DNA of 64,000 nt, from contig NZ_JNBA01000029.1 of the NCBI RefSeq assembly GCF_000760295.1, forward strand, positions 1 through 64,000. Direction: 5' to 3'. The position numbers and the translations under genes are program-made. The notes below the pieces were generated by a model, which saw only the letters and a program-made list of their open reading frames with translations, was not told the origin of the DNA and made no database searches. The stretch is from Prochlorococcus sp. MIT 0701. Lineage in GTDB: Bacteria; Cyanobacteriota; Cyanobacteriia; PCC-6307; Cyanobiaceae. Positions 54,354 through 59,735 of the stretch are shown here, in pieces. Position 1 is the first letter of the stretch, and each line of letters opens with the position of its first letter.

Positions 54354-55172
54354 CTATGGGGCTTGAACATCAAGGGCAATCAGTGAACCCTCCAGCACCA
54401 AACGGGTGATGCCGCGAGCCAACAGATAGGAGGTGGTGAGCTCAAAAACACTTGTATCAGGCACCTTGATCACCCTTTGACTACGTCCACACTGACGTTT
54501 GGCAGAACGGGGATTCGCAAACAAACAAAGAGCCCGTCTGTCCTGATCATCATCGGCTAGCAAACCCAACTCTGAGAACTCCTTCAACGGGCGCGCATCA
54601 AGTTCAACTGTCTTGTCGACAAGCATATAAACACTGCTAGGTAACAAGCCAGGCAAGAGAGGCTCACATTTCACCTTTGGACGATCATTGAAAGCAACAG
54701 AATCTGCGACTAAAGGAACCAGCTCGCAAAACACCTCGGACCCAGGCAGATCTCCCATATCCGCCTCGAGATGGTCATCTTGGCTGGAGTCCTCTTCCGG
54801 ATCATCACCAAAGTCATCGGCATCATCGAGAGCAAGAACACCTGCAGCTTCGTCGTCCAACGCGAGCTCATCCACCTTCCCCTCTTCAAGATTCCCCTCA
54901 TCAAGCGAATTCAGCGTCGATGAACTCGACTCTGATGGATCATTAACGGTTGCTTCTCCAACAGCAGAGAGAGTCTTAGAGATGGCACCACGCTGGGCAC
55001 GAGAGGCCTTCACCGCGACGTAGTCCTTCTCTGAAAGCAGCGTTTTAACGGTGCGAGTGACAGTATTAGGACTGCAGCCGTAAGCCTTGGCAAGGCTTGC
55101 TGTGGCATCACCTGCCCTGTAACGCTCCACAAGCTCAGATTTCTGGCTGTCGCTGAGCCGGCTGGCCGCCAT
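54354..55172 (-). CDS. helix-turn-helix protein with acidic linker
   Basis: 272 residues from ATG 55172 (MAASRLSDSQK). The N-terminal HTH is clear: KSELVERYRAGDATASLAKAYGCSPNTVTRTVK, like transposase- or sigma-type HTH units. A long, very acidic Ser/Asp/Glu linker covers about 75-140. The C-terminal half (VKCEPLLPGLLPSSVYMLVDKTVELDARPL and DRRALCLFANPRSAKRQCG) is of unknown fold, with Cys residues. It probably binds DNA. It is next to the tRNA-Arg, at the boundary of core and accessory DNA. Confidence 0.75.
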   Translation of the reverse strand: MAASRLSDSQKSELVERYRAGDATASLAKAYGCSPNTVTRTVKTLLSEKDYVAVKASRAQRGAISKTLSAVGEATVNDPSESSSSTLNSLDEGNLEEGKVDELALDDEAAGVLALDDADDFGDDPEEDSSQDDHLEADMGDLPGSEVFCELVPLVADSVAFNDRPKVKCEPLLPGLLPSSVYMLVDKTVELDARPLKEFSELGLLADDDQDRRALCLFANPRSAKRQCGRSQRVIKVPDTSVFELTTSYLLARGITRLVLEGSLIALDVQAP

Positions 55173-55239
55173 CGGATGCAAGTTCGCAGCCTCTAACCAT
55201 AGAAGGCCAACTCGATGTTGACTGCCACAATGCTCTGGT

Positions 55240-55313
55240 GCTCCCTTAGCTCAGCTGGATAGAGCAACTGCCTTCTAAGCAGTCGGTCGTGTGTTCGAAT
55301 CACACAGGGGGCG
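55240..55313 (+). tRNA. tRNA-Arg (anticodon TCT)
   Basis: 74 bases fold into a full cloverleaf. The acceptor is GCTCCCT with AGGGGGC and discriminator G, the D-arm is GCTC...GAGC, the anticodon stem is ACTGC...GCAGT around CTTCTAA, and the T-arm is GTGTG-TTCGAAT-CACAC. CCA is not encoded. It is the left boundary of the decayed element that ends in the tRNA fragment at 57133-57179. Confidence 0.95.
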
Positions 55314-55455
55314 TGAGTTATATCGGGGGTTCTCATCGCCATGCCTGGCGTCAGTCTGCTTTTGCAGCTGACGGCCCCTGGCGAAACAGCGCCAGAAAGA
55401 TCCACCTACTTGAGGCCATCCGGCGAGCTCATAAGTTGAAGCGTCGGAGGAGGAT

Positions 55456-55931
55456 ATGAGCCGGAAGTCTCCAAAATTTCTCTCCCGTGAACAAGACGCT
55501 CTTCTGAGGACAGAGCTGCTGCGCTTGACTGCAGAGCTCCATCCGATCACCGTCCGCGGTCTCTACTCCCAAGCGGTCGTGTCTGCACTGCTGGATTACA
55601 TCAGCCAGCACAGCATGGGGCAGCAGGGTCAACTACAACCTTCTTCAAGAATCTGCGTAAGGCAGCAGTCATGCCATGGGAATGGGTGGTAGATGAAACT
55701 CGACCCAACTATGGAGTCAACCGCTGGGTTGATCCTGCTGGCTTGACTGAGACAGCACCGCTGTATTACTCGCTGGATTTTTGGCGTAAGCAGCGGACTC
55801 GCCCGCTGGTCATGGTGGAAAAGGCAGGTCAGATCCCTTTTTATCTCCACCACGCTCATGAACGATGCCTTCAGCTTTTTGAAGGTGGCCTGGATGCTGT
55901 CGATTGGATCGAGCTGTACGGGCAGCAGTAG
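55456..55931 (+). pseudogene. frameshifted phage/mobile-type protein, TOPRIM-like family (tentative)
   Basis: A strong ribosome site (GGAGGAGGAT) precedes ATG 55456. The first frame encodes KFLSREQDALLRTELLRL and HPITVRGLYSQAVVSALLDY. The second frame, usable from about 55640 to 55931, continues the same protein with FFKNLRKAAVMPWEWVVDETR, YYSLDFWRKQRTRPLVMVEKAG and LHHAHERCLQLFEGG. The order HPxTVRGxYxQxV ... GxMPWEWxVDxTR ... WRxQ...xVxVEKxG is that of a protein family common in phages and mobile elements with a TOPRIM/Spo11-like part; that assignment is from memory. The shift lies at about 55615-55640. The C-terminal domain also looks truncated. Confidence 0.6.
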
Positions 55932-55945
55932 TGGCAGGCAGGCAA

Positions 55946-55973
55946 TCAAAAACCCCACTCACGAGAGCGGGGC
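55946..55973 (-). terminator. terminator after the GG-leader peptide gene
   Basis: On the minus strand CCCCGCTC-TCGT-GAGTGGGG, one mismatch in an 8-bp stem, is followed by TTTTTG. It lies 25 bases past the stop of the peptide gene at 55998 and supports that gene being transcribed. Confidence 0.7.
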
Positions 55974-55997
55974 ATTGTCTTCTGACTCTACCGATGG

Positions 55998-56273
55998 TCA
56001 ATACCAGACATTCGGACCAGGATTTTCTTCACCAGGAGGCTGGTGGACGTTGCCACCATTGCCACCACCAGAGCCAGCAACGATCGTAATGACCTTGATG
56101 ACTTCATCGACATAGTCAGAGCCTTCATGCTCCCCGTCGCCATCGCCGAAAGTTTTTTCAATCCACTTTCCTACTTTTGTCTTGGCTTTTTTGCCACCAC
56201 CGCACACAGTCGTGAGATCAGTGAGTTGAAGCTCTTGGTCAATGGTTTCGTTGATAAAAGAAGTATTCGTCAT
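55998..56273 (-). CDS. double-glycine-leader peptide (bacteriocin-like)
   Basis: 91 residues. The N-terminal part NETIDQELQLTDLTTVCGGG fits the leader pattern of peptides processed and exported by C39-peptidase ABC transporters (E-L-x-x-L-x-x-V-x-GG), with predicted cleavage after CGG. The core of about 65 residues is basic first (KKAKTKVGKWIEKTFG), then has a hydrophobic stretch (YVDEVIKVITIVAGSGGG) and ends in Pro/Gly. No cysteine remains in the core, so lanthionine rings are excluded; an unmodified class II-like bacteriocin or signalling peptide fits better. No exporter, immunity or modifying gene is visible within the window. A terminator follows. Confidence 0.65.
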   Translation of the reverse strand: MTNTSFINETIDQELQLTDLTTVCGGGKKAKTKVGKWIEKTFGDGDGEHEGSDYVDEVIKVITIVAGSGGGNGGNVHQPPGEENPGPNVWY

Positions 56274-56379
56274 GGTTTTGTTTAAGTGAGGAAGTGGAGG
56301 TCATCCCTCCAACACACTCACCATCTCTGAATTCACGGGATGACTCGATGACCTGCCTCAGTCGTCGCTGTGATGTTGC

Positions 56380-56657
56380 TCACAGGGTCAGATCGTCGGT
56401 GGTGAACAGCATCGCCAACCAATCTTCTGGAGGTTGATCCACATCTAGATCCCGAGGTAAGTAAGCATCCGCTGCCGACGGATGGGCTGGCCCAGTCGGG
56501 AGGATCGCCGGTAAGTGCTCACCAGAACGAATTGCGCGTGCTGCGTTGGTGAGTCGGGCCGGATCTGGACCAGCAATCCCTCCTGCTGATTCACCAGCCA
56601 ACCCTCACCATGGGGCTTCTCCTGGAACTGCTTGTAATACGGATGTTCCTTAAACAT
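56380..56657 (-). pseudogene. frameshifted small protein of the tRNA-bounded element
   Basis: From ATG 56657 the first frame encodes MFKEHPYYKQFQEKPHGEG and QEGLLVQIRPD. In a second frame the sequence continues as PARLTNAARAIRSGEHLPAI, AADAYLPRDLDVDQPPEDWL and ends at 56380. The shared DNA at about 56545-56570 reads RPDSPT in one frame and GPDPARLT in the other, so a one- or two-base indel there would restore one protein of about 90 residues. No family is recognised. It is not possible to tell decay from a sequencing error. Confidence 0.45.
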
Positions 56658-56710
56658 CGGAGGAGTCTGGTCATCGCCCTCGGCAAACTGAGAGCCGCAA
56701 TAAGTTACTC

Positions 56711-56869
56711 ATGCCAGAGACCACCAAGACCTGCGTTGAGATGACGTGTTTGCAAGGGTTGGCGGATCTGGAACGACTCTAGGGACCATCGCTGGATTTC
56801 TTACCCACCAACGACCCTGAGGCAGCACCGCCGCCGCTCCCTCAGGGTCGCTGGCTCATATGGCCGTGA
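56711..56869 (+). pseudogene. small gene with internal TAG
   Basis: ATG 56711 opens MPETTKTCVEMTCLQGLADL, a TAG lies at 56780-56782, and the same frame continues to TGA 56869 with LDFLPTNDPEAAPPPLPQG and RWLIWP. Both halves look like real protein. A single base change at the TAG would give 52 residues. A perfect 11-bp hairpin lies within its second half. Alternatively the two halves are unrelated. Confidence 0.35.
56812..56850. repeat. 11-bp perfect inverted repeat
   Basis: CGACCCTGAGG and CCTCAGGGTCG are separated by 17 GC-rich bases. There is no T-run after it. It may be a structural RNA or DNA element of the mobile remnant, or chance within a Pro-rich coding region. Confidence 0.5.
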
Positions 56870-57107
56870 CGAGCAAGCGGCTGCCAGGAGCGATGGTGCT
56901 CGATCGGCTGGATGTGGAAGCCAATGCTGTGGACCGAGCAACTGCCTTTCAGGCAATCAATCATGGAGGGATTGCAAGGTGCTGCACAGGGGTGAAGACC
57001 TGTTGCAAAAGGGTGAGAGCACTGCTCTCAGTTTTACTTCAAATCACTTTTGCAGAGGATTGCGGACGCAAGCACCGATTAACAAGAATCAATTCCCTCA
57101 CACAAAA

Positions 57108-57128
57108 AAGCCCATCACCACTGGGCTT
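57108..57128. terminator. bidirectional hairpin directly before the tRNA fragment
   Basis: AAGCCCA and TGGGCTT pair across a 7-base loop. The A-run at 57104-57109 serves as a T-run for minus-strand transcription, and TTAATT follows on the plus strand. It ends four bases before the tRNA-Arg 3' copy, as terminators often do at element ends. Confidence 0.65.
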
Positions 57129-57132
57129 AATT

Positions 57133-57179
57133 ACTGCCTTCTAAGCAGTCGGTCGATGGTTCGAATCCATCAGGGGGCG
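57133..57179 (+). repeat. 3'-half copy of tRNA-Arg (attachment-site remnant)
   Basis: 47 bases from the anticodon stem to the discriminator base repeat 55267-55313. The first 23 bases (ACTGCCTTCTAAGCAGTCGG...) are identical, as are the loop TTCGAAT and the end AGGGGGCG. The T-stem is GATGG/CCATC instead of GTGTG/CACAC, still fully paired. The D-arm and 5' acceptor are missing, so it cannot be a working tRNA. This is the expected direct repeat left by integration of an element at a tRNA 3' end. Confidence 0.85.
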
Positions 57180-57736
57180 TGCAGCCAGAGAAAACGAGTT
57201 AAGGAATTCTCCAACCGCACCTCGGCCTTTTACACTGCGCGAGCTTAATTTTTACTTTAGGCAAAAGCTATGCGTCATTTAGTAGATAATTTTTACTATA
57301 TCGTTTCAGCACTAATTAGCCCCGCAGCGGTGCAATTTAAAGAGGTTCTATACTTCAGCGGACAATGACCAGAGGAGCTGTTCTTTTGAGTCAGGGAAAG
57401 CCTTGCAGGCATGCTCCTTTATTCTGTTCGCAACAATTAAAATTACTTGGCCAAATAAATTCATTCATCCTCTTACGCTCGCCAGGGATGTTAGCCATCA
57501 ATCCAAAATTAAAGAATCAATAGTAAGTCAAGTAAAAAAATTCCCACAAGTGAGTTCATGGGCAGCAGGTATCGCACAAAATCACAAAGGAATACCAATA
57601 AAAGGCCAAGGTATTTCCGGAGAGATCAACATGAAATTGTTGCTGAGTTGATTAAAGAGTAGCCGCATAAGAACGCATTACAATCTATACAAAAATAGCT
57701 TTCAATTCTTGAACACATTAATCTAACTGACCATTG
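57180..57736. other. stretch without clear genes
   Basis: AT-rich. One open frame of 82 codons (57403-57651, plus) begins with a hydrophobic run but has no ribosome site or recognisable pattern and was not accepted. No RNA gene was identified. Confidence 0.35.
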
Positions 57737-58081
57737 CTAAGACTGATCATTATTGCCTGCGTCTTCAACAATGCATTCATCAATGGCGGCTTCGTCGATT
57801 TCGCTGACTACTGCAACAGAAGTCACGTCTTCAACTTTTGCAGCTTCATCAATTCCCTCTGGTTCACGCCGAACTAGCTCTTTAATAAACGCCTCAAGAA
57901 GATTATATAATCTTACAAATCGAACTGAAAGATCTTTAAGATCAATCCACATGCCCTCAAGGAGGGCTTTTATCTCCTCAGCCTTTTCACCTTTATTGAG
58001 CAGCAGGATTAAAGCTCCAACTCCTAAAACAATTCCCCCAAAAGAAAGAAGAATAAGCACAAAAACAACTAGAGCAGCCAT
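57737..58081 (-). CDS. single-pass membrane protein with acidic tail
   Basis: 114 residues. GGAGG lies three bases before the ATG, a strong site. One long N-terminal helix (LVVFVLILLSFGGIVLGVGALILLL) is followed by a basic-acidic coiled region (KGEKAEEIKALLEGMWIDLKDLSVRF and on) and a very acidic end (EIDEAAIDECIVED). It resembles DUF948- or YtxH-like membrane stalk proteins but no family can be named with confidence. It stands alone in accessory DNA. Confidence 0.65.
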   Translation of the reverse strand: MAALVVFVLILLSFGGIVLGVGALILLLNKGEKAEEIKALLEGMWIDLKDLSVRFVRLYNLLEAFIKELVRREPEGIDEAAKVEDVTSVAVVSEIDEAAIDECIVEDAGNNDQS

Positions 58082-58365
58082 GAACCTCCTTTTGACGCAC
58101 TTAGACGATCACGCACACATCCATTAACGACAAGCAGCCTTCAATAAAATTCAGGAATCAAAAGCGCTAAGCATTAATGGAGAAATGACTGTGCCATTCG
58201 ATTCACTCGGCTTGGGCACGTAATGATGGCTCATTGAAGAGTCCTCAAAGCTCTGTCCATATTTCAGAAGCCAGAGGTGATCGCAAAGACTGACTTGCAT
58301 ATGAACCAATATTCAGCGACAAAATAGCTATGCAGCTAATTTCATCACTGACAAGGTTTGGCCCC

Positions 58366-58830
58366 ATGCCTACTGATGAGATCAACACTCTCGAGCTGAA
58401 TAAGGGTCTCATCACGGTGATGACCGAAGGACCATTGGCCTTTCATCGCATCAGCGAGCCCCTGCAGCAACTTATCGAGAACCACGGTTACAGAGATGGT
58501 GCTGTGGTGCTGGCCGGTCTGCACACCACCACAGCCCTGATCGTGAATGAATGGGAAGAACGCCTGCTTGAAGACATCAAGCATTGGCTCAATCAATTGG
58601 CCCCAGCAAATCTGACCTGGAAACACAACGACCTTCATCTTCGCCCCAATATCCCTGAGGATGAACCGCGAAATGCCCATGCACACTTACAAGCGTTGCT
58701 GCTCGGTAATCACCTCACGGTTTCTGTCCAGGATGCCCAACTCGTGCTAGGTCGATATCAAGACGTCATCCTGGTGGAGTTAGACGGTCCACGACGACGA
58801 CAGGTTGGCGTGAGCTTTCTGGGTGCTTAA
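58366..58830 (+). CDS. YjbQ/UPF0047 family protein
   Basis: 154 residues from ATG 58366 (MPTDEINTLELNKGL); an ATG twelve codons upstream is possible. Family stretches are AVVLAGLHTTTALIVNEWEERLLEDI, NAHAHLQALLLGNHLTVSV and LGRYQDVILVELDGPRRRQV, each split by short loops. The conserved His, Asp and Glu form a probable active site. YjbQ has been reported to have low thiamine-phosphate synthase activity, but its true role is unsettled. Length is a little over the usual 135-140. Confidence 0.9.
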   Translation: MPTDEINTLELNKGLITVMTEGPLAFHRISEPLQQLIENHGYRDGAVVLAGLHTTTALIVNEWEERLLEDIKHWLNQLAPANLTWKHNDLHLRPNIPEDEPRNAHAHLQALLLGNHLTVSVQDAQLVLGRYQDVILVELDGPRRRQVGVSFLGA

Positions 58831-59735
58831 AAGCTTAAAACGATCCCTCAAAATCAACCAATTCCCCAAAGTCTTTACACCATCCTGATCAACACCAACG
58901 CGATGAGCTAATCGCCATGAGTTGCTCCCGACCAGTACATAACGAATGCAAGGCAAAGCATGTCAACAGGCCAATCACCTAGCCAAGACAAAAAATCAGA
59001 TAGGTGCTCCAATGAAAGCGCAGCTGGAATGCCACCACAGTTTTTTGTCGAGGCCAATCACACTCATCACTCGGGCTAATCCTGAATACCCCTGATATCC
59101 AGAAGCTGAACAACTTGGCACACTTGATTTAGCAGATTTCCTGTACGCATAAATTGGTTAGCACTTAAAGCCAAACATGCCGGCATACAGACCTATCGAC
59201 GATGAGGTGCTCCTAAAAACAAATCACTGCTCGCGACGACTGCTCAACCAAAACTGCTAGAAGATGGGGATTCAAATGTTGAGCAGTTCAATCAACATCG
59301 TAAAAATATATTCGCCATTGTGAATCCACTATCTACTATCAAGAATCGAGTCAGTCGGGTGATCATGAAGCTCAACAACTCCCTAACGATTGGAGAAGGA
59401 AGCCCTCACCGGCAAGGCTAGGAGTTTGCATCCCTCTTGAGGATCTTGTTAACACGAGTTTTCCATCACTGGCAATAGAGTTTGATATCCCTGCTAGAGA
59501 CAGGTGCTTAGGGAGTATTTCCCCCTGCGCAAGGGGCCACCTGTATTCCTGTATCGAATGGGTTTAAGTTTTTTTCACTCCTACCACGACGAGTTTCATT
59601 TGTACGGGATATTAATTATCTAGGTCGCCTTCAGATTGGGAGCAGCCTTGCTAACTAAACCTAGGAAAATAAACACAACTAAGCTGTATCCAAGACAATA
59701 TTCATTCTAATATCACTTCACTGTAAAGACTCACT
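58831..59735. other. 0.9-kb stretch without clear genes
   Basis: AT-rich with many stop codons in all frames. A 27-codon frame at 59178 (MPAYRPIDDEVLLKTNH) is too short to call. No tRNA, repeat or CRISPR was seen. It may hold small RNA genes that cannot be recognised by reading alone. Confidence 0.35.

Follow-up and report, generated by a model that had tools for sequence, protein, structure and literature searches.

The window analysed here comprises 64,000 nt of the Prochlorococcus sp. MIT 0701 genome (2.59 Mb, 99.98% complete) and lies on a 103-kb contig, C29. It contains a single tRNA, a tRNA-Arg(UCU) called by ARAGORN at 55239–55314, with the intact gene placed at 55240–55313 on the plus strand and scoring 65.8 bits against the Rfam tRNA model. 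A 47-nt copy of its 3′ half is found downstream on the same strand (57133–57179), where the model returns 26.1 bits, below the 29-bit cut-off. Alignment of the gene and the fragment gave 41 identities in 47 positions, with all six differences located in the T-stem, where three base pairs are changed on both sides: the gene has the T-arm GTGTG/CACAC (55289–55305) and the fragment GATGG/CCATC (57155–57171). The T-loop and the acceptor end are identical. The identity begins exactly at ACTGCC, with 0 nt shared further upstream, ends 2 nt beyond the 3′ end, and includes an uninterrupted 23-bp core (55267–55289 in the gene) running from the anticodon arm to the first base of the T-stem. When the 47-nt half was compared with the entire window, the two sites matched at 47/47 and 41/47 positions and the third best site at only 27/47, which excludes chance. 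The initial annotation had placed the gene, its copy and both T-stems correctly to the base. As a search of the genome found no further full-length tRNA-Arg(UCU), the gene at 55240–55313 is the sole complete copy and must presumably be working; the tRNA, chimeric as argued below, would therefore be functional.

The gene and fragment are separated by 1819 bp (55314–57132), a mosaic of broken mobile-type genes, as the initial annotation had also recognized. The clearest of these is a topoisomerase-like gene (55456–55877, plus strand) that is frameshifted and 3′-truncated, corresponds by tblastn to residues 17–160 of a 318-amino acid homologue, and is 76% identical at the DNA level to the genome encoding that homologue (G191). 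The homologue is intact in G191 and matches the phage topoisomerase family phrog_6247 at 4e-32; its truncated relative is the only phage-type sequence found in the insert, and the phage protein matches of the window ORF itself are distant, at 34.5% identity. The G191 locus (contig C26, L130) is a satellite-like element adjoining tRNA-Thr(CGU), with an integrase-like ORF, the topoisomerase-like protein, a DUF5906 DNA primase, a terminase-like protein and an HNH endonuclease.

On the minus strand, an ORF at 55998–56273 encodes a 91-residue peptide with a double-glycine-like motif (LTDLTTVCGGG), for which searches of Pfam and PHROG gave no match. It is 70% identical over 322 bp to a region of another contig of the same genome (G000:C23), and relatives occur at other places in this genome and in other genomes. 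Upstream of this ORF, at 56304–56390, lies a stretch of ∼70–85 nt that recurs at 72–83% identity on contig C30 of the same genome, twice in L059, and in L104, L132, G002:C55, G238 and others; it gave no match in Rfam and may be a common leader or promoter of peptide genes.

The right end of the insert consists of a decayed gene (56679–56945, plus strand), collinear with and 75 and 73% identical to L059 (Synechococcus AG-679-A04) and L132 (G293), respectively, followed by a segment adjoining the fragment (56974–57127, plus strand) that is 78% identical to G125. In L059 and L132 the matching DNA lies directly 5′ of a displaced tRNA-Arg fragment, and in G125 it runs up to that genome's own displaced tRNA-Arg fragment. 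Thus, the right end of the window insert is right-end DNA of tRNA-Arg elements found elsewhere. The pieces of the insert could derive from one element or from successive ones, and its mosaic makeup may stem from several events. No recombinase was found in the insert or elsewhere on contig C29, in agreement with the initial annotation; the matches in this genome sit on other contigs.

To the left of the tRNA gene the chromosome is conserved. An HTH protein gene (54354–55181, minus strand) follows pnp, cysQ and rsmI, an order kept beside tRNA-Arg in nearly all of the family genomes read and common to the window and three genomes of the same genus, G002, G003 and G004. These three are the same-genus genomes with a readable tRNA-Arg(UCU), in a comparison set of one genome per species, and it is from them that the resident allele was read. 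All three genes have the T-stem GATGG/CCATC and are identical to the window fragment at 47 of 47 positions, and the intact gene of the window differs from them in its T-stem. Since the displaced fragment corresponds to the allele of the genus and the intact gene does not, the fragment appears to be the resident half and the GTGTG/CACAC half the imported one, and a join between the import and the resident 5′ half is what Campbell-type integration predicts. Judged from these three genus-mates, this direction of exchange is likely. The earlier proposal that the fragment had been brought in is therefore reversed, whereas its argument against an origin of the second copy by decay is borne out by a fully paired T-stem that equals the genus allele. 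The GATGG/CCATC 3′ end, which the initial annotation suggested seeking in other genomes, was found both in these three genes and in three viral contigs.

To the right, the DNA at 57180–59017 is absent from the corresponding position of G002 and G003, with homology resuming at 59018 in G003 and ∼59199 in G002, and may represent the remains of older insertions. A UPF0047 gene (58330–58830) lies within this variable flank and was not seen at that position in either genome. Both of these genomes have a single tRNA-Arg 3′ end genome-wide among the matches listed. The alignment with relatives that had been proposed as a check thus yielded an insertion polymorphism, in which the fragment is absent and the site is differently occupied in G002 and G003; it did not yield an exact empty site among the relatives compared, as G002 and G003 have DNA of their own after the tRNA and the G004 contig ends ∼370 nt beyond it. 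The initial annotation had regarded either the same fragment in all relatives or a complete second tRNA-Arg allele as grounds against an insertion; instead, relatives without the fragment were observed, and the window's gene has no full-length companion.

The same site is occupied repeatedly across the picocyanobacteria. A pattern search for tRNA-Arg(UCU) gave matches in 129 of 251 family genomes, at least 21 of which have two or three 3′ ends on the same strand and contig, 1.8 to 86 kb apart. In at least seven genomes (G000, G226, G125, G088, G144, G265 and G149) the paired ends carry unlike T-stems, and detailed reading of six of these (G149 excepted) placed the full gene upstream and the headless copy downstream in every case. 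One of them, G226, belongs to another genus and repeats the arrangement in the window, with GTGTG in the intact gene, GATGG in the displaced copy, a spacing of 1830 bp and unrelated contents. Moreover, at least six genomes (G271, G238, G114, G155, G253 and G139) have a Phage_integrase match located between gene and fragment, and the integrase of G114 also has a weak match to an integrase PHROG. G238 (L096, L097) has a tandem array at the site: the same strand bears three tRNA-Arg 3′ ends, spaced by 10.4 and 16.1 kb, and the 10.4-kb interval contains an integrase. Across 29 distinct displaced copies, identity to the full gene was lost 0–10 nt 5′ of the anticodon loop, a count that required the loop sequence CTTCTAAG and hence bounds the crossover on its 5′ side only, fragments starting 3′ of the loop being outside its reach. 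These boundaries agree with the anticodon class of integration sites (PMC4383910). Integration at tRNA-Arg(UCU) is thus widespread among picocyanobacteria, and the earlier suggestion that a tRNA-targeting element explains the copy gains support from the recurrence of the gene-plus-fragment layout in the family and from the integrases found between the two in other genomes.

Halves of tRNA-Arg(UCU) are also carried by viral contigs, three with GTGTG and three with GATGG, and in L055, L057 and L142–L144 the half lies near a recombinase-like ORF. L057 encodes psbA and a class II ribonucleotide reductase, and its half, a putative attP, is identical over 49 nt around the T-arm to the intact gene of the window, an identity that is not specific to phage because native genes of other hosts match as well. 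The ORF ∼100 bp after this half has a weak integrase match and motifs like those of tyrosine recombinases. Its counterpart in L142, a contig with an endolysin, a reductase and a DNA polymerase, is 36% identical to it, and in L055 a phage capsid gene is present and an integrase adjoins the half. A 102-bp stretch at the displaced fragment of G256 is 100% identical to L144, so phages of the L144 kind have integrated at tRNA-Arg(UCU). L057 and L142–L144, all from uncultivated phages, thus present a putative attP type, a tRNA-Arg(UCU) half beside a recombinase-like ORF, that falls outside the tRNA-Leu sites of an earlier survey (PMC8776855). The window insert may or may not be of phage origin, and no direct phage source was found for it: L057 and L142–L144 do not match the insert outside the tRNA, no other phage DNA match to the insert beyond the tRNA was found, and the 47–48-nt halves had no match in annotated phage records by megablast.

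Taken together, these observations make it very likely that an integration targeted to the tRNA left 55240–57179 as its scar. In the reading that we favor, at a probability of roughly 0.87, integration into tRNA-Arg(UCU) was site specific, imported the GTGTG 3′ half and displaced the resident one, and the body of the element was lost later. The resident gene would have had the T-arm GATGG/CCATC before the event, and the incoming element an attP containing a tRNA-Arg(UCU) 3′ half with GTGTG/CACAC. A tyrosine recombinase would have carried out the crossover inside the 23-bp core that surrounds the anticodon loop, so that the resident 5′ half, completed by the element's half, became attL (55240–55313) and the resident 3′ half moved to the far end as attR (57133–57179). 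Subsequent loss of the recombinase and most of the body, presumably by deletion, would have left 1.8 kb of broken genes and, with them, a swap that is now fixed. The genus allele, the insertion polymorphism, the recurrent use of the site, the recombinases in other elements there and the right ends in common with other tRNA-Arg elements all support this sequence of events.

The alternative that deserves most weight involves the same mechanism in two or more rounds, with the GATGG fragment being the left-end tRNA half of an earlier element, whose remains would be 57180–59017, and the GTGTG element inserting later. The absence of 57180–59017 at this place in both G002 and G003 would fit such layering, tandem arrays are known at the site (the three 3′ ends of G238), and GATGG halves do occur in elements and phages; however, no second downstream fragment was found in the window and one step is enough to account for a fragment with the genus allele; layered integration is possible but rather doubtful. 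Phage contigs with the GATGG half, together with the presence of both alleles in the family, could suggest that GATGG was brought by the element and GTGTG was original. This is very unlikely, given that GATGG is found in three of three readable genus-mates and that integration into a tRNA gene leaves the resident 5′ half attached to an imported 3′ half (PMC4383910).

Two further explanations dispense with site-specific recombination. Annotated phage records include tRNA-Arg genes matching the region, from which the 3′ half could have been replaced by homologous recombination with a phage-borne gene, the fragment being unrelated debris, but this would leave unexplained both an old half kept downstream in the same orientation and the repeated gene-plus-fragment layout with recombinases in other genomes, and it is highly improbable. 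Duplication of the tRNA gene and later decay of one of the copies would account for two tRNA-Arg copies on one strand 1.8 kb apart. It is the least credible explanation of all, since the fragment starts at the anticodon arm, as other displaced copies do, and pieces of unrelated mobile genes lie in between; decay and simple duplication were rejected on account of the fully paired, genus-type T-stem.

Site-specific integration at the anticodon, as favored here, is an ordinary, textbook mechanism. In genomic islands at tRNA genes, the island brings a tRNA fragment that rebuilds the gene and displaces its former end (PMC4383910), and the window has in common with islands bearing the Islander signature a restored tRNA gene, a downstream 3′ fragment in the same orientation and an anticodon-class crossover. 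It differs from that signature in its two unlike T-arms, and the Islander filters (at least 2 kb, with an integrase) would reject its 1819-bp insert. Tycheposons, given a size of 4–200 kb in PMC10872708, resemble the window in their picocyanobacterial host and in the tRNA gene at their border; by that description the window differs in having no tyrosine recombinase that could be found, in being far below this size range and in having no cargo identified among its broken genes. With no recombinase and an insert of 1.8 kb, the locus is a relic and not a demonstrable tycheposon.

In T7-like cyanophages the attP sites surveyed were all in tRNA-Leu and integration occurred without stable lysogeny, and marine isolates contained prophage remnants and no intact prophages (PMC8776855), so that relic scars are to be expected. 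The layout of a half-tRNA beside an integrase, with relics in hosts, is repeated by L057 and L142–L144 with tRNA-Arg in place of tRNA-Leu; these contigs share only the tRNA half with the window insert. The putative site of P-SS2, the tRNA-Met of MIT9313, a close relative (PMC2784084), likewise lies in an island that contains degraded mobile genes and recurring tRNA 3′ pieces, but involves a different tRNA, and a T-arm difference is not described in the available text of that report. What is mildly new here is the readable T-arm swap, in which two distinguishable alleles allow the direction of integration to be read from sequence alone, and the tRNA-Arg attP sites in cyanophage contigs, compared with only tRNA-Leu in the survey; tRNA-Arg(UCU) is also added to the widely used integration sites of picocyanobacteria.

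At least six T-stem types (GATGG, GTTGG, GTGTG, GCTGG, GTCGG and GAGTG) occur at tRNA-Arg(UCU), several of them within single genera. In a control gene, tRNA-Gly(UCC), the T-stem is nearly invariant, with GCGGG/CCCGC in almost all matches, and with this one clean control the variation at tRNA-Arg(UCU) fits swapping by integration. The chances are about even that serial integration keeps exchanging the 3′ half of the essential, single-copy tRNA-Arg(UCU) across picocyanobacteria, in which case the T-arm would be an element-borne allele recording the previous host of the element, and cyanophages with a tRNA-Arg attP would be one carrier. If T-arm swapping is general, variation in target tRNAs would reflect the traffic of mobile elements and not slow drift. 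A second intended control, tRNA-Ala(GGC), apparently is itself an integration target, with two or three 3′ ends in several genomes and two T-stem alleles mixed within genera, including that of the window. In the window's genome (G000:C25:14007–14052) its T-stem is AGCGG/CCGCT, compared with AGGAG/CTCCT in G002, G003 and G004, and T-arm swapping may have occurred in tRNA-Ala(GGC) as well.
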